A program made the position numbers and the translations under genes. A stretch of 64,000 bases of DNA from Ianthella basta (Eukaryota; Porifera; Demospongiae; Verongiida; Ianthellidae): assembly GCA_964019415.1 (NCBI GenBank), contig OZ025869.1:11708363-11772362 (forward strand), read 5' to 3'. Under the pieces are notes generated by a model. The model worked only from the letters and a program-made list of their open reading frames with translations, did not search any database and was not told where the DNA came from. Positions 1,079-60,154 of the stretch are shown here, piece after piece (position 1 is the stretch's first letter; each line of letters begins with the position of its first letter).

Positions 1079-2086
1079 TTACAAAAGGACAAGTTCTGTA
1101 GATGTGGACTTCATGGGTACCTCATCTTCCCATGGACGTCCCTCCACAAATCCACCAGCAACAAACAGTGCAGTACAAAGATTCCCAACCGGTGCAGCAG
1201 CATGGCGCTACCCGCCCATACTCATGTTCGCTACTTCAATCCAAGTACCGGCATTCCCATCCACAAACTTGTAGATAGCTTTCTGAGGTAGGCCATCTTT
1301 CAAACCACCAACCAACAGGAGTGAATTATTGCATGAGACAGCTGTGGAGCGTACAAAGGGAGGGTCAGCTACTTAGTTCCTCACATTCCTCACAGCTTGT
1401 GCAGGTGACTGCTGCATTGCTGTAGCCTTTGTCACATTGCTCCACTTCGCTCTCCATGCCTCAGAGTTGAAGTTCCTGGTTCTGTCTTCACTTCGGACTG
1501 GAAATGTAAATGCACCACCCACAAGGTAGACATACTCTCCACAGAGTACCAATTGATGTGATTGCAGGGCTTTCGGAAGTTGAAGTGTCTGAGAAGTGTT
1601 CCACTGCATGGTGATGAAGTTGTAAATGTACGTGGTGCTGACAACTTCAAACTTTCCTTCTTCTTTTCTACTTTCTTCGGCTCCACCTGTCACTAGAAGT
1701 AAGTTGTCACAATGGCAAACACCACTTGCCACTCTATGAGTGGGCATGGTAGGAAGTCTTGCCTTCCACTCACACTGTTTCTCAAACCAGGTAGAGATAA
1801 ATTCAGTTAACCTTTCTGTCGCAACCCGTCCCCCAACCAGTGTGATGCGGCTGTTGATAACTGCTATGGGTGCATTGTAATTTACAGCTTCAGGCAGCAT
1901 GGACCACTTCCCTTCAGAAAGGGAATACAGCTGAACTTGAGAACTGCCTTGTTCCTTTTCTACGGCAATACCAGTAATATAGATGTTTTCATTCAAACGA
2001 ACTGATGAAATCACTTGCAGCTCAATCAGCATTGGCGGCAATCTCACAATGTTCTGTTGAGACCTGTGATTCCACTGGTAGCACAT
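1079..2086 (-). pseudogene. Kelch terminal exon A with two in-frame stops
   Basis: Full-length copy of the family's last exon. It follows a good acceptor (GTTCTACAG at 2087) in phase 0 and is closest to copy C: both begin with a short variable lead, then LPPMLIE or FPPMLIE and the ISSVRL-ENIY block. The six-blade kelch pattern can be followed to the usual C-terminal SxELVLL ending and stop at 1079. Two nonsense codons interrupt the same frame: TAA at 1373-1375, before the fifth blade, and TAG at 1208-1210, where the family has the Tyr of GRYRHA. There are no frameshifts, so the copy is young or still under some constraint. Upstream exons were not found between 2.1 and 10 kb. It is probably inactive, since even a truncated product would lose two blades of the propeller. 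Confidence 0.8.
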
Positions 2087-2183
2087 CTGTAGAACAGTAA
2101 CATTTGATGCATAGGTTTAGCAGACATTATAAATGTCTTTACACCACAGATACATCAGCTATACTCATCCCCAAAATCAAGGC

Positions 2184-2368
2184 AGATGTATGGATGGTGC
2201 AGTGTGTCTCTGAAGGGCATGGCAAACTACCTGACGAAAAACCGTAGGAACAAGCAGGGGGGCCAGTCCATGTAAAGAGGGGGGACCAGTCTGCATGTCC
2301 ACACAAAACCCAGGTCTGACTCATTAACATTCGCTGACTTCGAATACATTTGCACCATCCCTACATCT
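2184..2368 (-). mobile_element. MITE with GATGTAGGGATGG ends, copy 1
   Basis: About 185 bp bounded by inverted ends agatgta(t/g)ggatggtgca and tgcaccatccctacatct. The inside is closely similar to the element at 3153-3327 in the opposite orientation. The ends are also shared with the foldback element at 61069-61286. No coding capacity. Confidence 0.65.
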
Positions 2369-3152
2369 GGCAACATTTTGCCGCGCCTCCTACTATTGCA
2401 CAATTAACAATTCTGGCTATTCAGTGTCTCCTTTACACCTACAAGCACAGCCTTACAATTTGCCCATCTCTCTGCTTTGCTGTGCTCTATCTTCCCTTTC
2501 CACCAGGTGGTCCCTGCAAATTGCTTGCTACTCAATCTAAATTGCTATGCTCTATAATCTAGGACCTCCTAATCTTCCAATTACATAATTATGTGTTCCC
2601 ATGTATCAGTTGAAGGCTCCATATTCTTTGCATGGGTTCATCTCTTATGTAGCCATCTCACTCTGCCATGAGACCCCGGCAAACCACTAAGCTCAAATGC
2701 AGTGTCAATGCTTACCATAGCTGCTCATTACATCGCTGCCTGCAAACCACCACACCCACTTCTTGCCCACACTGTTTAGCTCTAGGCCAGCACAAACTTC
2801 TACACTTCACTGCCAACATTTGTGAAATTCAACCTTCATATACATATATCCAGGTAGCTAGTGTCTGTATCAGAACACACCAGTACATATGCATGCACCA
2901 CAGTGTACACCAGACTATGCAATTGCTATACAGCTGTACAGCCTTTCCTCATCAGCGCTTTAGTCATGGGTGTATGCATGCAGCTTGGTGATGTGTACAT
3001 GGGAAGATGCATAGCTGGAATAGGCATGCACTCTTAATCGCATGCATGTAGCAGCCCTTTAGCTTGCTTTTGCACACTCACAATTGCATAACAATATGCA
3101 GATGGAGAAATAGGGGGTGGTAGCAAGACCACAAGCACAGCAAAATGTTGCC
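2369..3152. other. Spacer between two inverted MITE copies
   Basis: Sequence between two inverted copies of the same MITE, so the whole 2184-3327 block forms a large inverted repeat. The spacer itself shows only short chance frames and no recognisable gene. Confidence 0.4.
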
Positions 3153-3327
3153 AGATGTAGGGATGGTGCAAATGTATTCAAAGTCAGCAAATGTTAATGA
3201 CCTGGGTTTTGCGTGGACAGGCTAGCCCCCCTTTTTGCATGAACCGGCCCCCCTCCTTGTTCCTATGTTTCTTCTGCCAGGTGGTCTGCCATGCTCTTAA
3301 GAGGCACACTGCACCATCCCTACATCT
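3153..3327 (+). mobile_element. MITE with GATGTAGGGATGG ends, copy 2
   Basis: Inverted partner of the element at 2184-2368. Shared internal landmarks include gcaaatgtattc, gtcagc(a/g)aatgttaatga, cctgggtttt and cttgttccta. The shared sequence extends a few bases past the ends (caaaatgttgcc), so a larger unit may have been duplicated. Confidence 0.65.
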
Positions 3328-3851
3328 GCTCCTGTTTTAAAGGAAACATTTTTACATACCCTTGTTTATCAAGTTTTTATGGAATGCAAATTGCACATGG
3401 GTAATGGCTGATCCACTTGAAAGGCTTTCAAACAACAGTGGCAACAAAGGAATGTGCCTGACTGCATGGTAGGGTGTGTAGCACATTGTGGCTGGGTGGG
3501 CAACCTAGGGTAGCCTGTGTTGGGTGGGTGCAAGATGTATTAATTCTATTTGGATAGGCTATATCATGATGCAGAGTTACTGCAATACAGGCTAGGACAA
3601 CAGAACAGGGGGGCTGGGGGCTGTAGCGCCCCTCGCACTTCAAATTACTTGATCCAGGAAAACATGGCAGCAGGCAAGACGGGCTTGGTCATGGAGTAAC
3701 GTCCACAATCTCAAATTTAGCTGCCACTCTGACTCACTGTCTGGAGGGATATTGACTATAACTACGTACGTACAGACCCACACCACAGGTGGTCTAGCTG
3801 TATGGCCCCTACATGCATATAAAAGAGCTGCACTATACCTACACCCTGAAT

Positions 3852-4105
3852 GCAGGATGATTGTGGAGTGGAACCGTGTAACAGGATTTCAGTTCCCCCC
3901 CTACTTCAGTTCCCCCTGGAACTCCAATCCTAGTATATGAGTTCTGGCAGACCTGGTCTCCTAGGATTATGGTTCCCCCCGGAACGTGCCTCCTAGGAGA
4001 TGGGTTCCGCTTTAGGATTCGAGTTCCCCCGGGCCCGGCCCCGTTGGGTTTGACGCTTAGGACCATGGTTCCCCCCTTTAGGATACCAGTTCCCCCCATG
4101 TCAGG
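3852..4105 (+). repeat. Irregular array of TAGGATnnnAGTTCCCCC units
   Basis: The motif taggat followed by agttcccccc recurs at irregular spacing (aggatttcagttcccccc, aggattatggttcccccc, aggattcgagttcccccg, aggataccagttcccccc). The same motif recurs in reverse orientation at 9130-9245. It encodes nothing recognisable and looks like a degenerate interspersed repeat. Confidence 0.6.
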
Positions 4106-4810: not shown

Positions 4811-4889
4811 ACAAATACAGCCAACATTACCATACACCTATAATGTTAAGTGCCCAAATACTATAACAATTATACCACCAGTACAAGTT

Positions 4890-5095: not shown

Positions 5096-5103
5096 GCTTG
5101 ACT

Positions 5104-10182: not shown

Positions 10183-11169
10183 TTACAAAAGCACAACCTC
10201 TACGGTAGAAGACCTTTTTATCTCTTCATCACCTATTGGTCCACCTTTTACATAACCTCCAGCGATAAACAGTGCTGTACCATGCCCTCCAATTGATACA
10301 ACTGCATGGCGATACTTTTCTACACTCATTCTGCCTACTTCAATCCAATCATAGCCCGAGTTTCCTTCAACAAATTGGTAGATAGCTCTCTGGAGTTTGA
10401 ACTCTTTTACACCGCCAACAGAAATTAGAGAATTCATGCTAGCAATCACTGTAGGGCGTAGAAACGGAGGGTCTGATATTCGCATCCAAACACTCTTCTC
10501 TGGCTCAAAGGGTTTTCTGATAGCATCTTTCATGTCGCTCCATCGTGCTCTCCATGCACGATAGTTGAAGAGATTTTCCTTTTCACGTGGCGCAGGAAAC
10601 ACAGTTGCACCACCCGCAAGGTAGATGTACTCGCCAGAGACTGTCAAGTGATGTGATCGTAAAGTTACTGGAAGCTCAAGTGCCTTAGGCGAGCTCCAAC
10701 TCCTTGTGCTGAAACTGTAGACATCTACTGAGCTAACAGCTTCTGCTTCTCCTTCTGTAGTTACCCCCGTCCCCCCGGTCACCAGAAGGAACCCATCATG
10801 TTGGCAAACACCACTTGCTGATCGCCTAGTAGGCATGGGAGGTAGCATGTGCTTCCATCTATGCTCATCCTCAGACCAGGTAGACAGCAAGTTGGTAATA
10901 TTTCCAGTTTCTGCATCTCGCCCACCAATCAGAGTAATGTGGTGGTCAACGACTGCAAGGGATGCATAGTAATTTGGAGCTAGTTGCAATGTAGTCCAAT
11001 TTCTTTCAATTAGAGAATAAACCTGCACTTGTCGGCTCTTTGATAGGTTATCATTATCGGTGGCAATCCCAGTGATGTACACTTTATCCTTCAGCAAGAC
11101 GGACGAGATCACTTGCAGCTCAAAGGGAATGGGTGGAAAGCTCATCACAGTACTACCAGATGGAGTGGG
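10183..11169 (-). CDS. Gene B terminal exon: six-blade kelch propeller
   Basis: Open exon of 329 codons including the stop. It begins in phase 0 after the acceptor TGTGCTATGCAG and ends with the family C-terminus VEVVLL. Kelch features: repeated blades of about 50 residues with Gly-Gly doublets (LIGGR, LVTGG, YLAGGA, ISVGGV, IAGGY) and Trp near blade ends (RNWTTL, HRWKHML, RSWSSP, VWMRI). Blade four carries the family insertion YRAWRARWSDMKDAI. Kelch propellers bind other proteins; the ligand here cannot be read. By strand, order and phase the upstream exons are probably the transmembrane exon 16315-16530, the CARD exon 19421-19699 and first exon 19953-20091. At least one exon that changes phase 1 to phase 0 is missing from this model. 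No stop or frameshift is seen. Confidence 0.85.
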   Translation of the reverse strand, partial: PTPSGSTVMSFPPIPFELQVISSVLLKDKVYITGIATDNDNLSKSRQVQVYSLIERNWTTLQLAPNYYASLAVVDHHITLIGGRDAETGNITNLLSTWSEDEHRWKHMLPPMPTRRSASGVCQHDGFLLVTGGTGVTTEGEAEAVSSVDVYSFSTRSWSSPKALELPVTLRSHHLTVSGEYIYLAGGATVFPAPREKENLFNYRAWRARWSDMKDAIRKPFEPEKSVWMRISDPPFLRPTVIASMNSLISVGGVKEFKLQRAIYQFVEGNSGYDWIEVGRMSVEKYRHAVVSIGGHGTALFIAGGYVKGGPIGDEEIKRSSTVEVVLL

Positions 11170-14370: not shown

Positions 14371-14713
14371 CGTAGTATGCTAACTATTTTCTGCAATGTA
14401 CCATACATATTTTGGAACATAATTATTCCTGACTTTATATTACACACAAAGTTAGGAGACACTAAACCATCCCAAAATCTCTCTTATTCACTCCATATAA
14501 CAGTTACCTGTCGCCTTTCAGATAGTAGAGTACCATGTTCTGAGGATAGACCAGTACAACCTGGACATGGTGGATAAAGACAGCAAGGATCATGAATGCA
14601 TTGATGCCATGCACTGTTAGATTAAGCTAGATGCAAATTACACAAATGTTGCAATTGCATACTGTTAAGGTGACATACATTATACACCTTGTTCATTATC
14701 TACATTATCTAAA

Positions 14714-16314: not shown

Positions 16315-16530
16315 CTGGAATTGTGTCATTGTAATCCCAGTTACAAACCAAGTTCATGTACTTCCAAAATCCTTGGTTGTGCCCAGTACAAGAATAAACT
16401 CCAGGGTAGCAACACGGAAGGCAGACTAGTGTAGTTACTGCTGCGGAACACACGAAACCCAACACTACGAGTGCATTCAGGCATCTACGGTTAGCCTGTT
16501 TGTGGAAATGGAGTCTTACAGATGGTTCTC
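16315..16530 (-). CDS. Gene B transmembrane exon (phase 1-1)
   Basis: Acceptor TATACTCACAG and donor CCAG|GTGAGC bound 216 bp, exactly 72 codons, in phase 1 at both ends like the other internal exons of the family. The peptide has a basic stretch (HKQANRR), then one hydrophobic helix (CLNALVVLGFVCSAAVTTLV), then a Cys-rich and aromatic tail. By the positive-inside rule the CARD side would be cytosolic and the kelch side would face out, giving a type II protein without a signal peptide. That topology is inference. It lies between the CARD exon (19.4 kb) and kelch exon B (10.2 kb) on the same strand. It could instead belong to an unrelated gene in the intron. Confidence 0.55.
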
Positions 16531-17525: not shown

Positions 17526-18160
17526 ACATCTCACTCCCATGCACCACACCTCATGCTAATCCATCACTTATCATGTCAATCCTACCATACTTAATGTGAA
17601 TCATGCTAACCCCCACCTTGTGTCACTCCCATCACACTGTGTTAATCCCACCCCACCTCATGTCACTCCAACCACACTTCATGTCAATCCCACCATACCT
17701 CATCATCGGTCAATCCCTCCATGTCCCATGTCAATCCCACCACACCTTGTGTCACTCCTAACATGCCTCATGTCACTCCCACCTTACCTCTTGTCAATCC
17801 TACCACACCTCGTGTTGATTCCATCACACCTTGTGTCACTCTCACCACACCTCATGTCACTCCTACCGCACATCATGTCACTCCAACCACACTTCATGTC
17901 AATCCCACCACACTTCGTGTCAATCCCTCCACACCTCGTGTCACTCCCACCACACTTTGTGTCACTGATACCAAGTGTTGTTGATCCCACACACCTCGTG
18001 TCACTCCCACCACACTTTGTGTCACTGATACCAAGTGTTGTTGACCCCACACACCTCGTGTCACTCCCACCAAACTTTTGTGTCACTGATACCAAGTGTT
18101 GTTGAACCCACACACCTGTGTCAATCCCACTGCACCTCCTGTCAATCCCCCACAGGGATT
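17526..18160. repeat. Minisatellite of about 20 bp, CTCATGTCAATCCCACCACAC
   Basis: About 30 degenerate tandem units of type cctc(a/g)tgtca(c/a)tcccaccaca. Between about 17930 and 18120 there is a higher-order unit of about 60 bp (three copies) containing actgataccaagtgttgttga. Long frames of type NPTTPHV are by-products. A shorter array of the same unit is at 53060-53230. Confidence 0.9.
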
Positions 18161-19420: not shown

Positions 19421-19699
19421 TCTCCAGCCGTTTCTTCATTTTCTTTCCTATCTCCTTCATCCTCGGGTTGCCCTTCACAGAAATGATTATATCACAGACC
19501 TTCATCAAGGCCTCTACAGTGCACTTGGCGACCAATATGGTGTGTAGAAGCGTACTTTGCTGTGTTGCATCATTTGCTTGCCTGATATCCTTTACATCTC
19601 CATCACTGATGATATCCGCATGTTGAAGCTCTTGTACCACTGCACTTGCTTTAATTGACTTAATGAATGACTCTCGAAATTCTTCAAGAACGTTTTCAA
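19421..19699 (-). CDS. Gene B CARD-like exon (phase 1-1, 279 bp)
   Basis: Bounded by acceptor CTGCATGCAG and donor GGAGA|GTAAGTG, 93 codons, phase 1 at both ends. The peptide is all-helical, with the CARD-style pattern of a helix, then VVQELQHADIISDGDVKDIR, then helices to RMKEIGKKMKKRLES. It is homologous position by position to the decayed exon at 50534-50812 and more distantly to the CARD exon of gene C. CARDs form homotypic contacts in caspase and NF-kB type signalling assemblies; the partner here is unknown. It follows exon 1 (19953-20091) in matching phase. A DED or other death-fold subtype cannot be excluded without a profile search. Confidence 0.65.
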
Positions 19700-19952: not shown

Positions 19953-20091
19953 CTTGTTCCTGCCCTGGAGAGCTGGGGTTCGTAGACGATATTTCATTTT
20001 CACTTTCTCCCTCAGCCTCCGCCACAAGATGCTTTTGGGCGACATGTGTGGAGCTAGCGTTTCCCAGTTTTCTCTTTATCAGCTTACTCAT
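19953..20091 (-). CDS. Gene B first coding exon
   Basis: Starts at an ATG (20091) and ends at donor AACAAG|GTGAATT in phase 1, matching the CARD exon acceptor. The peptide of 46 residues is polar and disordered: a basic start (MSKLIKRK), then acidic and Ser/Pro-rich (EGESENE, STNPSSPGQEQ). This resembles in character the first exon of gene E at 51417-51573. There is no signal peptide, so the N-terminus is probably cytosolic. Confidence 0.6.
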
Positions 20092-21582: not shown

Positions 21583-22378
21583 AACCACGGCTTCCATTTT
21601 GTGTGATGGGGACCCATGCCTATAGCCATTATGTTTCTGACCTTCTTGTATTGGACTGTTTTGGTTATAGTGTTCTATGCTGTTTCCTGTTTGTACTTGC
21701 TATAATATATTGTTTTTTGAATTGATTGGGCATGGGCCTGGGGGAGTTTGCTACTGTTACTATGCATCTAATTTACTGGCTTGGGTGAGGGGTGGCTGGA
21801 GTCTATACGGAAACCCTCTGGGCTTAGCAGGTACCGCCTGTTGCTCACCCAAGCATGAACGCATGCATGTGACAGGGTGGGCGGAGCCTCCAGGACCCAT
21901 GGACGGGTGGGCGAAATCTCCTGGCCCATGTGACGGTTGGCCAGGGCCACCCTGTTCACGTGACTGGGGGGCGGAGTTACTATGGCTCACGTGACAGCCA
22001 GCCTGCTGGGTCCCGCATTGACGCCATCCCTAGAGTGGGGTAGATAGGGGGTGAGGTCACCACGGTTATCGTGATCGCATTCCACCGATCTCGAGGGTCA
22101 ATTAAAGCCTGTCACATGACCACATGCCATAATTTTCAATGCATGCATATGCATGCATGGCTGGCCAACTTCACAATGGCTGAATGTGGTACCCCATTGT
22201 TGCTTTATGATGACTCCATCTTCCTGCATTCAAGCTGCATGTATGGTATACTCAATTTCCTCTATCTGCAATGACTACTTTGCAAACACAATTATATATA
22301 TATACCATTAACATTGCCTGTATATGTTACGCACAAACCTCCAACCTGCGCAAACCTCCAACTATTGCCCACGTGACC
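21583..22378. other. Intergenic with degenerate gggcggag/cacgtgac repeats
   Basis: Between about 21870 and 22000 a unit of about 35 bp recurs loosely (ggtgggcggagcc, acgggtgggcgaaatc, ggggggcggagttac, each followed by a cacgtgac-like word). These may be the 3' part of the recombinase element. No gene seen. Confidence 0.4.
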
Positions 22379-22534
22379 CTATATATGGCACTTTGGTGAC
22401 AGTTGATAATTAGGCTCATTGTCTGGGACAACCCCAGTGACATACACTTTGTTCTTAAGGTAGACGGACGAAATGACTTGCAGGTCACTGGGAATGTGTG
22501 GAAAGCTCATGACAGTAATAACAAATTGAATGGA
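22379..22534 (-). pseudogene. Kelch exon relic (5' piece)
   Basis: Keeps the acceptor (GTTATGCAG) and the first about 45 codons of a kelch exon (VMSFPHIPSDLQVISSVYL, then KNKVYVTGV). It then breaks into unrelated sequence with a stop at 22379. Blade two onward is gone. Confidence 0.7.
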
Positions 22535-22619
22535 CTGCATAACACAAGATGCAAAGGCATGCATCATGCATGCATTAGTGCATTTTAAATTGGGATCTCA
22601 TAGAGCACATTGAACTATC

Positions 22620-24197: not shown

Positions 24198-32521
<8,324 letters not shown>

Positions 32522-32792
32522 CTTTTCAGGCCATGTCCGTTTTTGTTTGATCATTCAGGCTAAAGGGTTGGCTCAACATATTAGTTCCAAGTACCTGTCA
32601 GTTGAAATGTTCAAATTAAAAGCAATTAAGTAATGAGTTGAATGGTTTAAACTTGTAGTTCACTTGTACTGCTTTCATTGCACGTGCATGGCTCTGACAT
32701 CACACTCACAATCACACAATCACATCACTACTTCAGCAGCTTTACGCATTCTTCAAGCACATTTATCCGTGTGGGTGTATGTCAAAATACAT

Positions 32793-34861: not shown

Positions 34862-35233
34862 AAACACAATCTCTACTAATTGAGACTTTTCATTGACTTC
34901 ATCTTCTGTTGGCTTGCCCTGCACAAATCCACCGGCAACACACAACCCAGCACCATGCTTCCCGAGTGTTACTACACCATGGCAGTACCTACCCACCCTC
35001 ATGTTGCCTACTTCAATCCAGCTGTTGTCAACCTTCCCATTGACAAACTCATAGATCATATTCTGTGGTGAGTTGTCTTTTACACCACCAATGGAAATGA
35101 GGGAATTTTGGTAGGAACATACAGTGGAGCGTGGGACAGGAGGGGCATTTATTGGCATCCATATGCTCTTTGCTGGCTTGGAAGACTCCGGGGCTACAGC
35201 TGCATCCCATTCAATAGCCTCAATGACATCGCA
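34862..35233 (-). pseudogene. Kelch exon relic D (3' piece)
   Basis: About 124 codons matching the last third of the kelch exon, from the blade-four insertion through ISIGGV, the GRYCHGVV blade start and CVAGGF to the C-terminal LVEIVFL. The 5' two thirds and acceptor are missing and the normal stop codon after the last Leu is absent (the frame runs on). In GRY-CH the usual Arg before His is Cys. A truncated, dead copy. Confidence 0.7.
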
Positions 35234-38479: not shown

Positions 38480-38565
38480 CTGTTGGTGTGGTGGCTGGTA
38501 CATCATGGAGTGAGCAAATGTTGGGTCTGTGCCTGGCGTGGGTCCGCTTGAAGGGTCTTGATGTG
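38480..38565 (-). CDS. Gene E linker exon (phase 1 to 0)
   Basis: 86 bp, acceptor CATCCATAG, donor CAACAG|GTACAG. It encodes HQDPSSGPTPGTDPTFAHSM and a Gln/Pro end. Its phase change fits the membrane exon before it and the kelch exon after it. Confidence 0.65.
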
Positions 38566-38943: not shown

Positions 38944-39078
38944 CTGTAACTGTAGAAACTTCACCCTGTTTTGCAGCTGGAGGAAGAACCGTATGTACAA
39001 AAATTTCCAGTATTAATATGACGGCAGCTGTTCGCGAACAGGCTCCCAGACAGCAAAATGGTTTGACATATTCCTGTC
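38944..39078 (-). CDS. Gene E transmembrane-like exon (phase 1-1)
   Basis: 135 bp, 45 codons, phase 1 at both ends, donor GTTACAG|GTATAT. A hydrophobic stretch TAAVILILEIFVHTVLPPAA follows a Cys-rich, basic-flanked segment (FCCLGACSR). The helix is about 16-19 residues, short for a membrane anchor, but it occupies the same place in gene E as the clearer helix in gene B. If it spans the membrane, the Death domain is cytosolic and the kelch propeller outside. Confidence 0.5.
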
Positions 39079-40524: not shown

Positions 40525-40641
40525 CATAGCCCATGTTCCAAGGGAAGGGTACCATTGCCTGTGGAGGTTGTACTCTAACATAATGTGCTGCAGTACTGGG
40601 AGGGGATGCGTCCTCCGGCCTTGTTTCACAGTCAGTCTTAC
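40525..40641 (-). CDS. Gene E Pro-rich linker exon (phase 1-1)
   Basis: 117 bp, 39 codons, acceptor GTGTATGCAG, donor GCTATG|GTACGC. Polar and Pro-rich peptide (ETRPEDASPPSTAAHY, QPPQAMVPFPW). It follows the Death exon in phase. Confidence 0.6.
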
Positions 40642-40866: not shown

Positions 40867-41145
40867 CTTTGATGAGTTCCTCTTTCAGATTCCTAATGTG
40901 CTGCACACCAATTTCTGCATATTCCATAGCTCTCAGTAGCACCGTCCATGTGGGAGTCTCCCCATTGCCATCCCTCCACTTTATCAGCCCGGACTGAACA
41001 GCCTCTTCTTCGTTCAACGGGTGGTCTTTGTAGCACATCTCTCTCGCCTCCGAAGAAAGGCCAACTCCCTCCAGGATGGCCCGACCTTTACCAGCTGCAT
41101 TTCTGCTAACAAATTTTCTCAACAGCATGTCACATCTCCGATGGC
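40867..41145 (-). CDS. Gene E Death-domain exon (phase 1-1, 279 bp)
   Basis: Acceptor TCTTTTACAG, donor ATCAAAG|GTGTGTGT, 93 codons, phase 1-1. The peptide shows the Death-domain signature: VQSGLIKWRDGNGETPTWTV, then LLRAMEYAEIGVQHIRNLKE. The W in the fifth helix, TW before LL-A and the final amphipathic helix are all present. Death domains form homotypic complexes in apoptosis and NF-kB signalling; the partner is unknown. It has the same length and phases as the CARD exons, so the two can be exchanged without frame damage. The donor again lies in a short GT run. Confidence 0.78.
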
Positions 41146-43313: not shown

Positions 43314-43593
43314 TGTTGCAGCTAGACACGAACTGACGACCACGAACCACGGGTAACGAAACAAATGGACAACAAGATCAATAAGCCACTTGGCAAACTC
43401 AACTTACAACAAGGGCAAGCACTCTACAGCAACACGTGCACAACAACTCAGCATGCGTGATACATGATGTAAGTAACCAAAAGAAGATACAATCAGATAT
43501 GCACAGTACAATAATAGCAACCATCAACATACAACACACAAGGTACTATTCTTAGCATCATGCACAGTAACCACAGGTTACAAGGTTACTACA
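43314..43593 (-). repeat. 3' LTR of the gypsy element
   Basis: 280 bp, TGTAGTAACC...GCTGCAACA in element sense. No difference from 47521-47800 was seen by eye. Confidence 0.95.
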
Positions 43594-43605
43594 CCCCTTC
43601 CCCCT
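43594..43605 (-). other. Polypurine tract
   Basis: AGGGGGAAGGGG directly abuts the 3' LTR in element sense, the usual plus-strand priming site. Confidence 0.85.
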
Positions 43606-43624
43606 AAATGGGAATTGTGTTCAG

Positions 43625-46600
43625 TCATGGGGTGTAACGGTCTGGGGGCCCGCGAGTGCGAGTGGACCTCCGTGGAGTTGTGCTGTGGCTCGACTCCGAA
43701 CTTGAAGCATCCACTGGTTCAGTGGACTCAGGTGGCCAAGGCAATGGAACGTCATCCATGTCACCGTTGGAGGGTTCATCCATGGAAGGAGCACGCCGTC
43801 TACTTCGGACATGGTCCACATGCCTCTTTACAACTCTGCCATCATCCAACTCCACCTCAAAAGACAAAGGCCCACGTAACGATCTGATGCATCCAGGTAG
43901 CCAATTAGGGCCTGCCGTGAAGTTCTTTACAAACACCAAAGATCCTGGCTCAAACTTTCTGTCCCGGCTGGATCTGTCATGATCTGCCTTCTGGCGGTCT
44001 TGAGCCCTGGCTACACGAGATGCCACACTAGGCCGCATGAGATCTAGGTGTGTTCTCAGTCGGCGACCCAACAACAGCTCAGCAGGTGAGACTCCGGTGA
44101 CTGTGTGCGGAGTTGTTCTGTAATGGAACAGGAACCTCGATAGCTGCTGTTGGATGTCTTCAGCAGAACTCTTCTTCATTGCCACTTTAAAGGTTTGTAC
44201 ATATCTTTCAGCTAGCCCGTTGGAGGAAGGGTGATAAGGTGCTGATGTGGCATGTCTGATACCATTCCTCTTGAGGAATTCCTTGAATTCAGCACTGGTA
44301 AAGACGCTGGCGTTGTCGGAAACAAGTAACTCCGGTAAGCCATGCATTGCAAACATGGACCTCAGTTTCTCGATAGTGTGCCTGGAAGATGTGGTGGGTA
44401 CCATCTCCACCTCCAACCATTTGGAATGTGCGTCAACGACGACTAAAAACATCTTCCCTAAGAAGGGCCCAGCATAATCAATGTGCAGCCTTGTCCATGG
44501 CTGGGATGGCCATTCCCAAGGATGGAGGGGGGCTTGGGCAGGTGTCTTCTGGTTCAGTTGGCATTCTCGGCACGAGTTCACTTTGCTTTCAATCTCTGAA
44601 TCCATTTCTGGCCACCACACCACCCCTCTCGCGATAGCCTTCATTCTTGAAACTCCGGGATGGCTCTCATGCAGTTCATCTAGCACTTGTGGACGTAGCA
44701 CTTGTGGTACTACAACTCGGCTTCCCCAGAGCAAACAGCCATCGTGGATCGATAATTCATTCTTCTTCCTTTGGAAGGTAGGCGTGATGGAGTTATCTTG
44801 GTCATTCCACTCCGAAGATACCAATTGTGCCACCCTTGACAGCATGGGATCCCTGGATGTGGCTGTCCTGATCTGTGATACTGTGACTGGAGATGTTGCG
44901 AGGTTCTCCAGTAGCAATATGGTCTCTCCGGGTAATGGAACTTCCGCTGGTGTTTCTGGCAGGGGAAGTCTGCTGAACAAGTCGGCATTGGCATTTTGGG
45001 GTCCTGGTTTATACCTAATGGTGTAGTCATAGGCACTCAGGGTCAAAGCCCAACGTTGAATCCTTGCCGATGCCATTGCTGGCACTGGTTTCGTTTCTGC
45101 AAACAGGTACTGTAGTGGCCTATGATCTGAAACAATACTGAACTTTCGTCCAGCCAGGTAGAGATGGAACCTCTTAACCCCAAAAATGATGGCCAATGCT
45201 TCTTTGTCTAGGTGGGCGTACCTTTTTTCTGTTGGTGTGAGAGAACGGCTTGCAAATGAAACTGGCTTGGTGGACCCATCTTCCATCTCGTGAGAAAGCA
45301 CAGCCCCCACTCCATAAGGAGAGGCATCACACTCCAGGATCAATGGTAGATCTTGGTTGTAGTGAACTAAAACATCTGAAAACAAGAGGGCTTCTTGAGC
45401 TTTCTTGAAAGCAAGGTCTTGTTCCTTTCCCCATGCCCATTTGGCATTCTGTTTCAACAGCTGGTGCAAAGGTGCCAACCATGTTGATGATTGTGGCAAG
45501 AACTTGTTGTAGAAATTCAGCAACCCCAAGAATGACCTTAGCTGAGTCGTATTCTCGGGCCTGGGTGCCTCCATCAGGGCATGAACCTTTTCTGCAGAAG
45601 ATTGAATGCCATCAGCCGAGATAATGTACCCCAGGTACTCAACACCCGGGAGCATAAAAGCACATTTGCTCTTCTACAGGTGGAGTCCCGCTTCCTCCAG
45701 TCGGCTGAGGACTTCTTGCAATAGCTGAAGGTGCTCCTCTTCAGTCGTTCCTGTCAAAAGTATGTCATCCAAGTACACGGAGACATGGTCCAATCCCTGC
45801 AGAATGCCCTCAATGGCTCGCTGAAAAATTGATGGTGCAGATGAGACTCCGAATGGTAGGCGGTTGAATTGGTATAACCCTTTGTGGGTATTGACAGTGA
45901 CGACTTTCTTAGAATCCTCATCCAAAGGCAGCTGTTGGTAAGCATGGGCAAGGTCAAGTTTTGTGAAGGCTTTACCACCTGCCAAGGATGCAAGGATGTC
46001 TTCCGTGCGTGGCAGTGGGTAAGAATCTGACTTGATGGCCTGATTTACAGTGACCTTGTAGTCCCCACATAATCTGACCGATCCATCTGACTTCATCACT
46101 GGTACTATTGGGGCAGCCCACTCAGATTCCACTACCTTGGATACCACACCTTCATTCTCCAACCGCTGGAGCTCCTGCTCAATTTTACCCTTGATCGCAT
46201 ATGGCACCGAACGTGGACGGTAAAACTTTGGAGTTGCTTCTGGGTCGACATGGATTTTTGCCACAATGTTCTTGGCAACCCCCATCTTCTCCGAAAACAC
46301 TACTGCATGCTTTTGCAGGACATCTTCAAGCATTTGTGGCTTGTCTTTGACAACTTGGCAGATAGCATGCCAGTTGAGCTGAATCTTCTGCAGCCAGTCT
46401 CTTCCCATCAGGCTTGGATCATTTCCGCTCACCACTAGAAGTGTTCCGGAGGCCTCTTGATCTGCATACTGCACATGGGCTGGAATGGATCCCAAAATGC
46501 AGAGACTTTCTCCTGTGTAGGTGCGCAATTTAGCATCAGAGGGCTGCAAGGGGAAGTTACCTTCAGGCCACAACTTCTTGTAAGTGGTCTCGCTCATAAT

Positions 46601-47494
46601 GGAGACTGATGCACCCGTGTCAACCTCCATGGTAGTTTCCACCTGATTCACCCTTAGGCGGACTGTGATTGGCGCATTCCGTCTCTGAGACATGGTAAAA
46701 AGCTCATAGGACTCAGACTCCTCACCTTCCCCTTCAACCTTGTGAGTTTGCTGGGTAGGTGCGTTCTTGCCCTTACCCTTACTTCTGCAAGCCCTAGCGA
46801 GGTGCCCTTTCTTGTTGCACTGGCGACAGATAGCTGTTTTGAAGGGGCAGTGATTTGCCAGGTGGGTTGCATCATTGCAACGGTAGCAGGTCTTAGGAGT
46901 TGAGTGCTCCCTTGATGACCCTTGTGTCTTCACCACCATGACTGGGTCCTCTCTCGCCTTTGGCTGTGCTGCTTGCAATTCCCTCGCGTTTTTGGCAGCT
47001 GATTCTGCAGCCTGGCACAAATCAAACGCTTTCTTGAAAGTAAGCTCCGGCTCTGCAAGCAATTGACGCTGTAGACTGGCATCCCTGATGCCGCAGACGA
47101 TCCGATCTCGCAACATATCGTTCAATGTTGCCCCGAAGTCGCAGTGCTCCGTCAATCGCCGTAACTCCGCCACAAAGTCGGCGATAGTTTCTCCTTCTTT
47201 CTGCACCCGCGTGTTGAATGTGAATCGCTGAACGATTACTGACGGCTTCGGGCGGTGGTGGGCTTGCACCATGTCTACTAGCTCCCTGAAATCGCAGTCG
47301 GTTGGCTTCCTCGGAGCCACCAAGTTCCGGATCAACTGATAAGTCTGTGCCCCACACACGCTAAGGAGGATCGCTCGCTGCTTTGCCGCCGCCTGGACAT
47401 CATTGGCCACGAAATACTGTTCTAACCGCTCGGTGTAGGACTCCCAGTCTTCTTTCTTTGGCTCGAAACTGTCCAGCACTCCGTGTGTCGCCAT
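43625..47494 (-). pseudogene. Gag-Pol polyprotein with one in-frame TAG
   Basis: Starts at ATG 47494 (MATHG); the frame is open further upstream into the LTR, but this is the first ATG after the primer site. Domains in order: gag of about 200 residues; zinc knuckles CYRCNDATHLANHC and CRQCNKKGHLARAC; protease VDTGAS; RT with LDLAHAYQQL and YLDD; RNase H (LECDASPYGVGAVL, DKEALA, SDHRPL); integrase HHCC box and catalytic residues (HIDYAGPF, SDNASVF); C-terminal GPY/F-like segment. A single TAG at 45674-45676 lies about 20 codons after YLDD, separating 627- and 676-codon halves in the same frame. Everything else is open, so this copy is either freshly disabled or uses stop suppression. Confidence 0.93.
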
Positions 47495-47499
47495 CAAGC

Positions 47500-47517
47500 A
47501 TCCCACCTTCGTCGCCA
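47500..47517 (-). other. Primer binding site
   Basis: In element sense TGGCGACGAAGGTGGGAT begins three bases after the 5' LTR. It opens with TGG as expected for pairing with a tRNA 3' CCA. The tRNA species was not determined. Confidence 0.75.
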
Positions 47518-47520
47518 AAG

Positions 47521-47800
47521 TGTTGCAGCTAGACACGAACTGACGACCACGAACCACGGGTAACGAAACAAATGGACAACAAGATCAATAAGCCACTTGG
47601 CAAACTCAACTTACAACAAGGGCAAGCACTCTACAGCAACACGTGCACAACAACTCAGCATGCGTGATACATGATGTAAGTAACCAAAAGAAGATACAAT
47701 CAGATATGCACAGTACAATAATAGCAACCATCAACATACAACACACAAGGTACTATTCTTAGCATCATGCACAGTAACCACAGGTTACAAGGTTACTACA
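47521..47800 (-). repeat. 5' LTR of the gypsy element
   Basis: 280-bp partner of 43314-43593. It is followed on the plus strand by the target duplication ATGTC. The gag frame remains open into its downstream edge. Confidence 0.95.
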
Positions 47801-50533: not shown

Positions 50534-50812
50534 TTTTCAGACTGCCACTCATATCTTTCCCTAATCTTTTCAGGCTTGGTCTGCCATCCGTGGACATGAA
50601 TATCTTACAGACTTCCTGCAAGTCTTCAGTATGACAGTTTTTCTTCAACTTGTTGTGTAGAAGTTTATTTTGCTAACTGTCATCATCTATGCGTCTGGTT
50701 ATATTCATATCTCTATCAGAAATTATTCCTTTATGTTTCAGGTCATCTATCACTGCCTTTGCATCCACCTTCTCAATTAACCGAGCTCAATATTCATCAA
50801 GAATTTGTTCAG
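50534..50812 (-). pseudogene. Decayed CARD exon of gene E
   Basis: 279 bp aligned without gaps in length to the CARD exon 19421-19699: KAVIDDLKHKGIISDRDMNI here against ASAVVQELQHADIISDGDVK there. In-frame stops at 50787-50789 (TGA) and 50673-50675 (TAG). The acceptor that reads CAG in gene B reads CAA here, while the donor GTATGT is still usable. The exon has been lost as a coding unit, but because it is phase 1-1, skipping it leaves the gene frame intact. Confidence 0.8.
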
Positions 50813-50997
50813 TTGCAGTAATTATATAGACCAGAAATGTGATACAAAACTCTATAATAATTATATCTACTTTGAGGAAGGTCATGCTTGCAAAGTGTGA
50901 GTTGAAAGACACAGAAGTATAATAGTATAGCTACAAGTCATTAGTGTAGTATCCATACTTTACAAACACAATAAAAATACAGTTTTGATTTGCTCAC

Positions 50998-52849: not shown

Positions 52850-53060
52850 ATCACTGTATACATACCTGCAACTCTCAACGTGTCACTCTGTTCCCAAGCC
52901 AAGCCACATGGCATGGCCTTCCAGCGTACAAATGCTAACCTCCTACTGGTATTCTGGATGAGCACGTCTTTCTTGCTACATGACTTGTCTCCATTGACGG
53001 CAATGAAATATGAAACAAGGGCATTACAGTGAGACCAGTTAAAGATATTACTGTATTAAT
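52850..53060 (-). repeat. Repeat paralogous to 16640-16790, uninterrupted
   Basis: The minus strand reads SYFIAVNGDKSCSKK and TSRRLAFVRW. The segment runs straight into the minisatellite without the Tigger element found in the other copy, so it records the empty site. Confidence 0.6.
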
Positions 53061-53230
53061 ATCTCACTCCTACCATGCTTCGTGTCAATCTCACCTCACC
53101 TCGTGTTAATCCCACCACACCTCATGTCAACCCCACCACACCTCGTGCTAATCCCACCACACATCGTGTTAATCCCACCACACCTTGTGTCAATCCCACC
53201 ACACCACGTGTAACTCCCACCACCATATAC
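53061..53230. repeat. Minisatellite, short array
   Basis: About eight units of cctcgtgt(c/t)aatcccaccacac, the same unit as 17526-18160. Confidence 0.85.
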
Positions 53231-53330
53231 CTAGATAACTGCTTGTGTAAATATAAATGCTCATAGGAGAATACTGAACACACTGTGCTTTTATCAAAAC
53301 ATACACTGCAGATGCAGTCAATTACAAGTA

Positions 53331-53822: not shown

Positions 53823-54910
53823 ATTGATTGATTGATTGATAGAACCATTTGCTTCCATGGCTGGTACCAACAGTCCATCAGGGAGGCGGAGAATCAAGTC
53901 AGGTGCCACCTTGCTCAAGGTAGTGCACACTACCTTGCAAGGAACATTGGCACAGTATCACCTACTTCCTACATTCTCTTGCCTACACTCCAAGTATGTA
54001 CTCGTACCACTTCAGTTACCAAGAAACTCACCTATATGAAGTGGGAGGTATGGGCACACTGTTCATCTGTTCAACTGAGTGCAAGCAGAGCAAGGGCCAA
54101 GATGTATCTGCGAATGATCACGAGTGATGTAGACTTCCCCCACCCAGGATTATGAAAGAGGGTAGTTACGTTAGCTGAATATGACAATAGCTAGCACACA
54201 GCATTCCCTGACAAAAACCTATTCTAACATGGCTGCATATGTCGACTCATTGATCTATAGTGGCCGATGTACAACTGCGGCAGACAAAACTTACAGCTCA
54301 CACTGGCCACTGTCTAAGTTTGTGTGTAGTTTAGTTAGCTAATTAGAATGAACTACCTGAAACAGCAACAGCGCACTAGCTAGGTGCACTGGTCTAGCTA
54401 GGGCATGTATGGAGCATCATTGGCTTCTTCAATGAGAAGTCCATGCCACCAATTCACTAGTCAGCCGTAGTGCGTCATTAGAGTATGACGTATCTAGCTA
54501 CCCTACGCCTTCACTACTCGTCACGGCCACATCTCATTGCCGATGGCCCTCACCATGTGTGCACATTACCTTGTCTCTTGCGAATGACTTGAAGCAGATA
54601 AAGAAGGACAATTACAACTGAACTACTACATTTCATCAAAACACTGAGAAACTCCTAGCCGTATTATATCCACCATCATTAAAACTGCTAAACCGCATGC
54701 CCACCAGGCACAGCTCACTAGTACTGAACAAACAAAAGCAATAGTAATGCATTTAGAGCGTAGCCAATTATATATGTGTACTTGCAATTGAAAGCTCGAA
54801 CTGCTGCTCTTGCTGAAATTGATGCTCTATGACCACTAAATTAAATTATGATCATGAATGTGTAAGTTGGGTCTGGGTGTAGCTATGTATTAACGCATAT
54901 GATGAATATC
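53823..54910. other. No gene seen
   Basis: Starts with a short (TGAT)n. Overlapping short frames on both strands have no domain cue. Confidence 0.35.
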
Positions 54911-55003
54911 CTATAGCAAGATGGACGAGTCCAAGATCACTTGCAGGTCATGCTCAATGGGAATGGGTGGAAAGCTCATGACAGTACTACCAGGTGGAGT
55001 GGG
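54911..55003 (-). pseudogene. Kelch exon relic (5' piece, B-type)
   Basis: Keeps the acceptor CATGCAG and PTPPGSTVMSFPPIPIEHDL, nearly the same as the start of kelch exon B, then stops at 54911-54913. The adjoining intron (cagggattttagcttaac, cgtacataaccactt) is also shared with gene B, so an intron-exon junction was duplicated. Confidence 0.7.
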
Positions 55004-55972
55004 CTGCATGACATGTAAGCATACACACGAGTACATGGACACAGTCAACATTTCAAAGGCATCAACCTATTATGATAAACAGGGATTTTAGCTTAACAGG
55101 CGTACATAACCACTTCATATGCTGGCGCGGTATACCGGCTCAGAGGTGCATGATAAATACCTATTACACAATTATCGATTCATATACACTACTGTGGGCC
55201 ACGCCTATATATCTCTACTAGTATGGGTGGGTGCTTATTGGGTGTCATTCATGTCAGAACTATGCTACTGAGTAGGACAGTCCCACTTATATGTAGGACA
55301 TGCAGTCCCACTTAAAGTAGGACAATCTCATAGCTAAGTTGACCAATAATTCAATAGTATAGTTTAATTTTGACCTGAATGGCACCACATATGTAGGTAC
55401 TGGTATTCCAACATTGAATGAAATAATTATTATAATCATGATATTATTTATCAATTGTCAGTTCCACTTATTGTGCTGTGTTGTGTGTACAATGCATGAT
55501 CTATGGTGTCAACTGTTAATGCACCAATTGCAAAGTTATTCCTAAGAAAATAATAATTTCTGCTGCAGTAAGAAATTGGATAAAGTTTAATCATAATAAT
55601 TATATAATTAGGCTTTCTATTGGCACTAGCAACACTTGCATAGTATTATGTATAATATTAGCATGTGCATGGGTCTGCAGCTGGGCTATGTATACATGGC
55701 AGTTTAACTGCAAGCATCCCTCCCTCCCTTGATTCTGTTCCCATCCTGTGGACAATATCTTGGATTCGGAAGCAAAGCAGTAGGCATCCCCGAGCTCGAG
55801 GTTGCAATTGACTTGGCCTAACCTCTAGAGAGTTTTATTATGTTGGAGAAAAAGGTTATAGATCTGTGTCCTAGTTGGCAGTGATTGAAGGAGAATGACA
55901 TGACAGTTAATTCCTTTTTGCAGGCAGGAATTGTCTGTGTGCATGTTTGTGTGTATTTTGTGAGTATGTGTA

Positions 55973-57081: not shown

Positions 57082-58005
57082 TTACAACAGCACAAGCTCA
57101 GCAGATGCAGACTTTACAATGGCTTCGTCACCTGTTGGTTTGCTGTACAGAAAACCACCAGCAATAAACAGTGCAGCACCGAAATCTCCAACAGGTACAG
57201 CGGCGTGGCGATACCTCCCAACACTCATGTTCCCCACTGTAACCCACTGGTTGTCGATGAACTTGTAAATTCCTTTCTGGTGTGAGCCATCTAAAATACC
57301 ACCAATGGCAATTAGCGTGTGAGGCCGATTTATCGGCCTGCAAGAAACTACAGTGGAGCGTAGAGCAGGAGGACCCGGTATTGGTGTCCACAGATTCACA
57401 GGCTTGGATTCCGCACCCTGAGCAATAACGTCTTTGACATCACTCCATCGTGCTCTCCATGCATGTCTGTTAAATTGCTCTTCCCCATCTTTAGAATTTG
57501 TAGGATATGTGGTTGCACCAGCCATAAGATAGATATCGTCTTCAAAGAAGACCAAGTGATGTGATCGTAGAGCTATTGGCAGTTCAAGTGCCTTAGGAGT
57601 GATCCAACTCTTTGTGTTGAAGTTGTACACATCTACCGTGTTGAGAACTGTGGGTTCAATTTCTATTCCGCCAGAAACTAAAAGAAAGTTATCATGGTGA
57701 CACACACCACTCTCCAATCTCCGTGTAGGCATGGGAGGCAGTATTTGCTTCCATTCACGCTCTTCCTCAAACCAGCTACACAGAGCGTTGGTAATAATAC
57801 CACTGGTTGCATCTCGCCCACCAATCAAGGTAATGTGGTCATCGATGATTGCGATTGGAGCATTGTAATTTGGAGCTGGCTTCACAATAGGATCCCTGGG
57901 TACTGTACTCCACTTTCTCTCTTCTAGAGAATATACCTGAACTTGCCGCCGTATTGACAGTATATCATCATCATCTGAAGCAACCCCGGTGATGTATACT
58001 TTATC
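57082..58005 (-). CDS. Gene F terminal exon: kelch propeller
   Basis: 308 codons with stop, phase 0 after acceptor TTACTATGCAG, starting DKVYITGVASDDDD and ending SASAELVLL. Unlike the other copies, the first blade strand (LQVISSVLL) lies in a separate exon at 60014-60154. Doublets: LIGGRD, LVSGG, LMAGA (second Gly replaced), IAIGG, IAGGF. Blade-four insertion HAWRARWSDVKDVI. The open frame and conserved blades indicate a functional copy. A small extra segment (PINRPH) interrupts blade five. Confidence 0.86.
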   Translation of the reverse strand, partial: DKVYITGVASDDDDILSIRRQVQVYSLEERKWSTVPRDPIVKPAPNYNAPIAIIDDHITLIGGRDATSGIITNALCSWFEEEREWKQILPPMPTRRLESGVCHHDNFLLVSGGIEIEPTVLNTVDVYNFNTKSWITPKALELPIALRSHHLVFFEDDIYLMAGATTYPTNSKDGEEQFNRHAWRARWSDVKDVIAQGAESKPVNLWTPIPGPPALRSTVVSCRPINRPHTLIAIGGILDGSHQKGIYKFIDNQWVTVGNMSVGRYRHAAVPVGDFGAALFIAGGFLYSKPTGDEAIVKSASAELVLL

Positions 58006-58344
58006 CTGCATAGTAAGTCAGATGAAATAGATGATTGGATATCCATTATAGTGTATGCCACATCAGAATGGCAATAGTTGATGATGCATTACAATATTTC
58101 AAGAACAAGCCAACATAAGCACCATAATGTTATAGATCTTTCTAATAATAATAATGCTGGGATCACTCCTTGCCATTGACATTGACTAGATGACATTTTC
58201 CCTTTGCGGGGCTTATTACCCCACCGCTGATGATGACTAAGCTGCATGTTTTTAATAGTTCCTGCTTTAGTTGTCTCTTATTTACTTATCCTTTTTATTA
58301 GTAATATTGTAGCATCATCTATTCAATCATAATAATAATAATAA

Positions 58345-58762
58345 TCTATATCTATATGTATAATTCAGTTCGTTTGTTTCTTTGTTTGTTTGTCTGTTCG
58401 TTCGCGCTTCGGGCAAAAACTACTGCACAGAACACCACCAAACTCTCAGGGATTATAAAGTGGGGCTCCGCGAGTGTCATCCATGGGTTGAAATTGCCCG
58501 TCTTTCAGTTCTTGAAGAGGTATCCTTCTATGTCCGTTTTTTGTTCGCGGCTGACAGCCATTTTATTAATTATCGCTCCCTTGACTTCCGGGTGTCGGAC
58601 AGTTTGATTCGCTGTGTTCAACAATCAACTTTAAACTCGGCCGTCGTTATAGCAGCTACCTTCCGTTGCTACCAGCTCACATACGTCAAAACTGGCTTGG
58701 GCCAACTCGCTGTTGTGCGACTCACCATAGCAGAAGCCCGCCGAAAGCGGGCGCCCTGCTAG
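58345..58762 (+). mobile_element. Non-autonomous Helitron-like element
   Basis: Begins TCTATATCTATATG after an A and ends with hairpin GCCCGCCGAAAGCGGGC, GCCCTGCTAG and a host T. The 5' (gtttgtttgtctgttcgttcg) and 3' parts resemble the elements at 14714-15588 and 42070-42460. It lies in the intron of gene F. No Rep/helicase. Confidence 0.7.
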
Positions 58763-59040
58763 TGTTTATATAACACGTTAACTACGGTAATATAACTGTG
58801 CTTGCATTTATACAATAATGTATCGACGGAAGTATTAAAGATAGAGAATTCATATTGTCGGTCATTTCTGTTTGCCTCTCTCATGCCGAAAGAACCGAGG
58901 GAAGGACTTTGAAACCGGCTTCCAAACGTCGCTCCGCACGGAGAATAGGCGTCTTCTGCCTTCAAATTTGTAGAACAGGCAAGAAGGCCCACCACCTCTA
59001 GTCATCTAAACAGGAGGTCCGCGTTTTGAAGATTTGTGCA

Positions 59041-59143
59041 ATGCTTACAAGCTCTGATCATGAGGACGATCGTCTCAGTATGTTTCCACCCTTGGGTATC
59101 AATTGGAGTGCGATGGGAAGGCTTTTCAGTATCAGATCCCCAA
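59041..59143 (+). CDS. Candidate plus-strand first exon
   Basis: ATG (MLTSSDHEDDRLSMFPPLGI) open for 34 codons to donor CCCCAA|GTAAGA, phase 1, with CpG-containing sequence upstream. Acidic, disordered start. It lies in the intron of gene F on the opposite strand. No downstream exon was recognised, so this may be chance. Confidence 0.25.
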
Positions 59144-60013
59144 GTAAGACTGTGCGTATACGTATTGAGTAGTCGTAAGAAGTAAAAACTAGTCTCGCCG
59201 TTCCAGATGGTAACTGTGTTGAGAGACGACGCAGTGGCAGCCTGGCTTAGTGAGACTAGTGCACAGGTGTGGTTTGCTTACATAGTGCATTATTGACATC
59301 AGAATGAGAACTATAGATAGCTATAATGCATACGAAACATGGCAGTAATGTAAATAATGTGGTGATTTCGACCTTCATATTTTTGCCTATGTATATATCC
59401 CACTAGCCCTGCTGGATCAGAGTGAGACAAGCACTGAAGGGACCACTCTATAACCCTGTGAATAACCGTCATTTTAATGTTACTTTGGTACATCAAGTTA
59501 AATCAACAATTGCAAAGCAACTGAAATAGCAGTAAGCGCACGTCGACATCGCTAACAAGGAAAAGTAACAGCAGGTAGGTTGTAATAGTAGTTAGCTGGT
59601 AAGCATGGCATCACTGGATGCTCATGTGTATTATCTCATTTTTGCGAGAGGGATAAGTTGTTGAAGCAATCCAGCTGACTGCCTCTACCTTTAGGTTTGA
59701 ACCCGTCTTCTAGCATGTACGTAGCAACCAAACGCCACGTTATAAGGTGAATTCATCCATAAGCTCTTGTCAATCACACACATGTCACATGACATGCATG
59801 TGATTTGGGATGACAACACAGGAATTACATCTTTCGGGTCTAATGTAAAACAAAACTAGGCATATGCATGTCCCACATGTGTAGAATTACTGTAAACTGT
59901 GATATAATGGCTAGCTATCCTCAATCTAATCCTATGTAGCTACATTTATAGAACAATGCAGATTAACTAGCTAGATACGCTGCTAGCAATTGCTTACAAT
60001 ATCATTGACTCAC

Positions 60014-60154
60014 TTTCTGAATAGTGTTTTCTTCAGTGGGCGGCTGACTTAGCAAGACAGATGAAATCACTTGCAATTCATTGGGCATGGGAAACAGCTT
60101 GATGATGGTAGAACCAGTTGTTTTAGGTGTTGCAATCGGTAGCAAGACCCTTTC
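60014..60154 (-). CDS. Gene F penultimate exon with first kelch strand
   Basis: 141 bp, 47 codons, phase 0-0, acceptor TTCTCTGTAG, donor CAGAAA|GTGAGT. It encodes KLFPMPNELQVISSVLLSQ, matching the start of the other kelch exons, followed by 11 extra residues (QPPTEENTIQK) before the join to DKVYITG. An intron has been gained here or lost in the others. Confidence 0.7.

Follow-up and report, generated by a model that had tools for sequence, protein, structure and literature searches.

Kelch terminal exons predicted to join exchangeable modules in a candidate recognition-protein family of the sponge Ianthella basta

A stretch of 64,000 nucleotides of the Ianthella basta genome (contig OZ025869.1, here C2, positions 11708363-11772362; the whole stretch is referred to as the window) contains a cluster of kelch exons belonging to a modular gene family, which we followed through the assembly (209 Mb, 96 contigs). 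This family is real, large and, as far as our searches show, undescribed. Its members are probably modular recognition proteins that evolve by birth and death, with a diversifying kelch sensor shuffled between different signalling modules. We regard the architecture as well supported, the splicing as predicted and a recognition role as likely; an immune role we infer. The original prediction, made from the letters of the window, had suggested that such a family was not yet described, and in keeping with this no kelch/death-fold fusion was found in the literature, searched among open-licence papers.

Kelch exons and gene models in the window

A tblastn search with kelch exons recovered eight kelch loci in the window, all on the minus strand, of which four are open, one carries stops and three are partial, confirming the predicted cluster. 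The kelch loci and the exons assigned to them are the following:

1079-2086, minus strand: k1 kelch exon, decayed copy (in-frame TAA near 1374 and TAG near 1206)
10183-11169, minus strand: k2 kelch terminal exon, phase-0 acceptor (Pfam and tblastn)
14508-14560, minus strand: k2 linker exon, phase 1 to 0 (kept in the paralogous stretch L037 with a 21-base insertion)
16315-16530, minus strand: k2 transmembrane exon, phase 1 to 1 (NDT sequon C-terminal of the transmembrane segment)
19421-19699, minus strand: k2 CARD-fold exon, phase 1 to 1 (predicted fold)
19953-20091, minus strand: k2 first coding exon with ATG (not found in L037)
22340-22546, minus strand: kelch N-terminal fragment (tblastn)
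24198-25226, minus strand: k3 kelch exon (Pfam; acceptor phase 0)
27698-28039, minus strand: k3 ankyrin exon, phase 0 to 0 (similarly placed copy at C2:11959511)
28216-28269, minus strand: k3 small exon with a GC donor, phase 0 to 0 (exon chaining)
28844-28933, minus strand: k3 ankyrin exon, phase 0 to 0 (exon chaining, domain search)
29143-29346, minus strand: k3 ankyrin exon, phase 0 to 0 (Pfam, exon chaining)
32246-32525, minus strand: k3 CARD exon, ends in phase 1 (Pfam)
34859-35230, minus strand: kelch C-terminal fragment without 5' end (tblastn)
37232-38251, minus strand: k5 kelch exon (Pfam, exon chaining)
38480-38565, minus strand: k5 linker exon, phase 1 to 0 (exon chaining)
38944-39078, minus strand: k5 transmembrane exon, phase 1 to 1 (exon chaining, hydropathy)
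40525-40641, minus strand: k5 linker exon, phase 1 to 1 (exon chaining)
40867-41145, minus strand: k5 Death-domain exon, phase 1 to 1 (profile comparison)
50535-50813, minus strand: decayed CARD-like exon carrying two stops, on the far side of a retroelement upstream of k5 (tblastn)
54863-55048, minus strand: kelch N-terminal fragment (tblastn)
57082-58005, minus strand: k7 kelch second exon (tblastn)
60014-60154, minus strand: k7 kelch first exon (split-kelch fit)

Homology among these exons is a direct observation, as is the agreement of their frames and phases. The k2, k5 and remaining open kelch exons share 43-55% identity with k3, the fourth open exon, and the four open exons and k1 score above the Pfam kelch cut-offs, with Kelch_6 E values of 1.8e-14 to 6.2e-20 across the open four, identifying the product as a kelch beta-propeller. 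The frame around the C-terminal fragment (34697-35344) falls under the Pfam cut-off, with paralogue matches reaching E 9e-30. Six blades, an insertion after blade four (..AWRARWSDV..) and an ELVLL-type end, all predicted as common to the family, are visible in the kelch alignment examined by eye. The predicted phase-0 entry holds for every locus with a 5' end, each having an AG acceptor in phase 0 there (7/7). Of four ENA relatives examined, two (P0001 and P0002) read through here with the same '..LQ|D..', which suggests that other genomes have retained the kelch acceptor.

That the kelch exons are 3' terminal exons of multi-exon genes, as proposed, agrees with the predicted in-frame chains upstream of k2, k5 and k3. 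The k2 model consists of five exons in frame (557 amino acids, ATG start, single terminal stop), and its phases agree at all junctions. The predicted structure of its second exon resembles the Apaf-1 CARD (VIA-align comparison), which places it among CARD folds, and its hydrophobic segment (19-residue hydropathy 2.46; four K/R in the preceding 15 residues, none after) makes k2 a candidate membrane protein. In L037, the kelch is 66% identical to that of k2 and the splice borders of the transmembrane, linker and kelch exons are conserved; the linker is 21 bases longer and the transmembrane exon 30 bases shorter (hand count from the alignment), and since these changes are multiples of three, the reading frame is preserved. 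The k2 transmembrane exon was found at only two places genome-wide, k2 and L037.

In k3, four exons, three of them encoding ankyrin repeats, are joined in frame to the kelch exon, all in phase 0. About 2.5 kb upstream of the L017 kelch lies a copy of the largest of these ankyrin exons (97% identity), an arrangement that reproduces the k3 layout; no CARD resembling that of k3 was found near L017. The k3 CARD exceeds the Pfam cut-off both as an open reading frame (26.5 bits vs. 23.9) and in the genome search (26.9), assigning it to this domain, and drops below it (22.6) in a longer joined model. At C2:10.80-10.81 Mb, a CARD relative and an ankyrin relative share a strand at a distance of about 14 kb, with no kelch among the matches listed.

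The k5 chain of Death, linker, transmembrane, linker and kelch exons is in frame, with or without the transmembrane exon, and a putative first exon can be read as well. The k5 Death exon shows Death-domain similarity by profile comparison (A5 vs. CRADD, E 1.9e-4); Pfam Death matches five of 21 of its relatives and not k5 itself. In the genome, the k5 Death exon has 16 full-length relatives (84-90% identical) and one partial relative (86%) on C2:1.1-3.9 Mb, and one on C1 (88%). Synonymous divergence (dS) is 0.16 between the k5 Death exon and one C2 relative, and 0.32 between the k5 kelch and its nearest relative, L021.

The differing upstream modules that had been predicted are thereby present: CARD plus ankyrin (k3), CARD fold plus transmembrane segment (k2) and Death plus transmembrane segment (k5). 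The profile search suggested for checking them recovers kelch, ankyrin and the k3 CARD, but Pfam by itself misses the k2 CARD fold and the k5 Death domain; of the genome-wide Pfam searches, that for Death has no match listed in the window and that for CARD none except the k3 exon.

The count of eight loci stays, with one correction: 60154-60014 and 58005-57082 fit one gene, k7, with an intron-split kelch. The predicted intron of about 2 kb (AAA|GTGAGT ... TGCAG|GAT) is in phase 0 on both sides. We rejected a reading of k7 as simply broken by an insertion, because the phase-0 intron fits and near-identical copies exist. One copy of the k7 segment is 99.8% identical over 3.9 kb and another is at 97%; together with the decayed k1 and the fragments, this near-identical copy is why we regard the family as evolving by birth and death, as had been proposed. 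The intervening segment itself (58006-60013) is flanked by near-copies of ATTTCATCTG.CTT.CTA and has a usable phase-0 donor and acceptor, making it a possible intron gain; L010, L011, L012 and L015 have a similar downstream border.

Scale and module linkage across the genome

Copy number and linkage were likewise observed directly. At least 147 distinct kelch exons are present genome-wide, with minimum counts of 98 on C3, 23 on C2 and 12 on C8; the list is a hand-made union of searches with two kelch types, excluding a few partial rows, and is thus a lower bound. Of the original idea of a lineage-specific death-fold-kelch family, the birth-and-death part stands, but the definition is too narrow for a family of this size, whose kelch exons elsewhere follow a kinase exon (C8, C3) or a CARD plus an exon we call X (C3). 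In C3:11.57-12.23 Mb, CARD, X and kelch mostly follow one another in repeated order, interrupted by gaps and two kinases. Exon X (about 260 amino acids; L036:4931-5722) lies between CARD and kelch on C3 and gives 62 match rows genome-wide. No Pfam model matches it over the cut-off, and its PDB matches do not go below E 0.28; we considered it as a TRADD-N domain and found no Pfam TRADD-N in 16 members at E 5. A tblastn search of the window with X yields nothing beyond a chance-level match (E 0.34) located inside k1.

A same-strand kelch lies within 12 kb on the 3' side of at least 19 of 110 CARD exons and at least 21 of 61 X exons (two halves of one row merged), compared to at least 12 and 8, respectively, on the 5' side. 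For kinase exons, the corresponding numbers within 3 kb are at least 41 of 70 typed exons on the 3' side and at least four on the 5' side; with the limit widened to 12 kb, a range in which arrays overlap, they are at least 57/70 and 36/70. The kinase analysis used 70 of 135 rows, which sets a floor of 41/135. The 65 excluded rows come mostly from arrays on C5, C9, C10:5.2 Mb, C11, C14 and C16, with two on C2, and most lie on contigs with few or no entries in the kelch list. Among the listed kelch exons, an opposite-strand kelch is never the nearest 3' neighbour within 12 kb for any module and is nearest on the 5' side for one kinase.

These data bear on whether the kelch exons might be independent single-exon genes or an amplified mobile cassette, with the adjacent death-fold and kinase exons belonging to other genes. 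An ATG directly after the k1 kelch acceptor fits this alternative, which we nevertheless consider highly unlikely given the phase-0 acceptors, the in-frame chains of k2, k3 and k5, the borders conserved with in-frame indels in L037 and the recurrent CARD, X, kelch order on C3. Ten C8 genes also argue against it: the kelch acceptor TAG|GA(G/A)GTTCTG is conserved in 10/10, and the kinase frame ends directly at GTGAGT in seven and at GTG|GGGGTCAG, with a shifted border, in three.

Regarding exchange between module types, the three kinase-adjacent exons in a kelch tree are interspersed with 16 CARD-X-adjacent ones (nearest dS 0.07-0.19). The tree has three label changes with weak support, and 500 of 500 shuffles were as low.

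Frames of about 1,800-2,000 amino acids around some C3 kelch exons were rejected as fusion genes, as the two examined proved to be runs of N. A protein search for annotated fusions gave 13 matches, which neither support nor refute a fusion; 12 are ENA proteins of 366-398 amino acids with kelch-type domains only. The thirteenth, P0013, is a bacterial Ser/Thr kinase with kelch domains, named from Pseudonocardia thermophila, and is perhaps a convergent kinase-kelch design. Separately, the exon families of the k2 CARD fold and the k5 Death domain yield 712 and 450 first-look candidates genome-wide, sometimes close together (C8:5.08 Mb, C2:8.07 Mb), which suggests a second very large CARD-Death gene family in this genome.

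Selection on the kelch propeller

The selection pattern was observed directly in two related arrays. For C8, we compared 10 of 11 genes (L064, whose kelch matches in two pieces, was left out) and 44 of 45 kelch pairs, excluding one with near-zero dS. The median ratio of nonsynonymous to synonymous divergence (dN/dS) is 0.24 in the kinase exon (0/45 pairs >1) and 0.90 in the kelch (15/44 >1), at median dS of 0.113 and 0.095, respectively. For C3 (21 kelch and 16 X genes), the medians are 0.76 for kelch (41/210 pairs >1) and 0.32 for X (0/120), a contrast weakened by unequal dS (0.118 vs. 0.439). Across the selection comparisons, codons with stops were skipped in L010 and L018.

Variable codons lie mostly just past the GG of each blade and just ahead of the next inner strand, and windows at these positions define what we call the face. 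Ligand-binding residues of Keap1 include Tyr334, Arg415, Arg483 and Tyr525 among others (PMC6891428). Within the kelch motif, such residues presumably occupy loops that match the fast-changing ones here. Of the 32 sites with the highest nonsynonymous variation (pN), 28 fall in the face in C3 (p 5.6e-14) and 25 in C8 (p 1.6e-10); for synonymous variation (pS), 12 of 32 do so in C3 (p 0.12). In C3, pN/pS is 1.41 in the face (confidence interval 1.05-1.99) vs. 0.46 in the rest, and in C8 1.36 (0.95-2.06) vs. 0.59; per-site averaging gives 1.29 and 1.23 for the two faces. None of the circular shifts of the mask reaches the observed face pN (0/323 in C3, 0/327 in C8), the highest shifted value in C8 (0.161) lying near the observed 0.162. 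The contrast is weaker in the window family (39 pairs; face 0.90, rest 0.49), with face and rest values of 0.97 and 0.49 in the k7 group and 0.71 and 0.43 in the k2 pair; a related group from C3:3.5-4.1 Mb and C10 reaches 5.02 and 0.63, with few synonymous changes. The pairs k3-L017 and k5-L021 have kelch dN/dS values of 0.22 and about 0.25 (0.08/0.32), respectively, from which we conclude that these exons are maintained as protein.

Several observations weigh against a family of diversifying, module-shuffling recognition proteins. The face was drawn after the C3 profile, leaving C8 as the only independent test, and there the pN/pS interval includes 1 and the top pS sites are themselves enriched in the face (14/32, p 0.02). 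Mean pS is also higher in the face than in the rest (0.151 vs. 0.106 in C3, 0.127 vs. 0.078 in C8), and gene conversion could have distorted dS. In the window, the k3 and k5 groups show purifying selection both in the face (0.26 and 0.32, respectively) and in the rest (0.36 and 0.28). On the side of architecture, the original prediction that each kelch exon ends a death-fold gene was not upheld, as upstream modules were found for only three of the eight window loci. The k3 CARD exon is immediately preceded by an in-frame TGA and ends in phase 1, with no exon found that bridges it to the phase-0 ankyrin part; k5 has a decayed CARD-like exon upstream; and the k2 CARD-fold exon was not found in L037. 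Genome-wide, for 91/110 CARD and 40/61 X exons no kelch is listed in the 12 kb on their 3' side, and the label test is compatible with a single origin of the kinase linkage in the kelch tree.

The stops in k1, the three fragments, the decayed CARD-like exon and the TGA before the k3 CARD would also suit a cluster that is mostly a graveyard of decaying duplicates with few working copies. Such a state is very improbable, since k2 is intact, the low dN/dS of k3-L017 and k5-L021 is not expected from decay, and 122 of 124 kelch matches listed in one genome search have no internal stop. A somewhat stronger case, still unlikely in our view, can be made for proteins with true 3' kelch exons that serve as adaptors or substrate receptors, their faces tracking changing endogenous partners. 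Kelch propellers can bind endogenous peptides, as in Keap1-Nrf2 (PMC6891428). Purifying selection in the k3 and k5 groups points the same way, whereas a large tandem copy number and a C3 face pN/pS above 1 would be unusual for such a role, and neither BTB nor BACK was detected in the three gene models at E 0.1. For a sensor role, originally envisaged alongside an adaptor one, the pattern in C3 and C8 speaks in favour, but the k3 and k5 groups lack it.

Proposed mode of action and known systems

If the family consists of recognition proteins, the six-bladed propeller on its single terminal exon would act as the variable sensor. A phase-0 splice would connect it to exchangeable modules, which in the window are CARD, Death, ankyrin and transmembrane exons and in other places a kinase or CARD plus X. 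The propeller face would bind a non-self, symbiont or altered-self ligand, and binding would gather copies, upon which the N-terminal module might nucleate a CARD/Death assembly or activate a kinase. The repertoire would turn over through duplication, diversifying selection on the face, swapping of N-terminal exons and decay. It is conceivable, and we hold this only tentatively, that the family represents an undescribed animal receptor class, with a hypervariable-face kelch cassette common to CARD/Death, membrane-anchored and kinase outputs, phase-0 terminal-exon shuffling and a function in discriminating microbes or self from non-self. If so, a large recognition repertoire, diversified in the germline, would have arisen on a kelch propeller in an early animal lineage, with one sensor feeding several alarm outputs. 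The family is a candidate for how sponges distinguish symbionts, food microbes and foreign tissue, and offers defined loop positions and paralogue pairs ready for testing.

By analogy, it may work most like the fungal HNWD receptors. Their partner domains are HET and NACHT. HNWD proteins such as Podospora HET-D and HET-E form a multigene propeller family controlling non-self recognition, in which, as far as the available text covers, repeats are exchanged by concerted evolution and diversifying selection acts on four interaction-surface residues of each repeat; their propeller is WD40, unlike the kelch propeller here (Paoletti et al. 2007, PMC1805685).

The closest published case found, judging from its accessible text, is the large expansion of Death-like plus TRADD-N proteins in the sponge Amphimedon, amphioxus and oyster (Kaur et al. 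2021, PMC8195603). The Amphimedon proteins have between one and three N-terminal Death-like domains and a C-terminus that varies and evolves fast, kinase being one of the domains found there; in amphioxus and oyster, WD40 propellers form the C-terminus. Both systems are large lineage-specific expansions; however, 'kelch' does not occur in the available main text of that paper, Pfam finds no TRADD-N in X at E 5, and here the C-terminal propeller is constant in type while the N-terminus changes.

By the features tested, the window family lies outside both the NLR and the BTB-kelch families. Sponge NLRs, as described for Dysidea avara in the portion of that study at hand, are likewise expanded and carry a CARD or Death N-terminus (PMC12909245), but NLRs are defined by NACHT plus leucine-rich repeats, neither of which was detected in the k2, k3 and k5 models at E 0.1. 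The kelch propeller is common to BTB-kelch proteins (KLHL/Keap1), and among the solved relatives by sequence KLHL and Keap1 chains come after designed SAKe propellers; the absence of BTB and BACK from the models is subject to k3 and k5 possibly missing a first exon. A study of how sponges respond to microbial patterns has, in its accessible part, separate entries for kelch, CARD and DEATH genes (PMC6208332).

Other features of the window include a long terminal repeat (LTR) retrotransposon at 43314-47800, which separates the decayed CARD-like exon from the k5 Death exon. It encodes protease-reverse transcriptase and RNaseH-integrase frames, and its identical 280-base LTRs (280/280) and 5-base target duplication (ATGTC) mark a very recent insertion. 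The splice donors at 27697, 32245 and 40866 continue directly into TG repeats (GTGTGTGT), and some frames in L036 appear similar; microsatellites may thus be growing from splice donors in this genome. Finally, two mutually related arrays of a 21-base repeat lie 35 kb apart, at 17644-18016 and 53040-53265.

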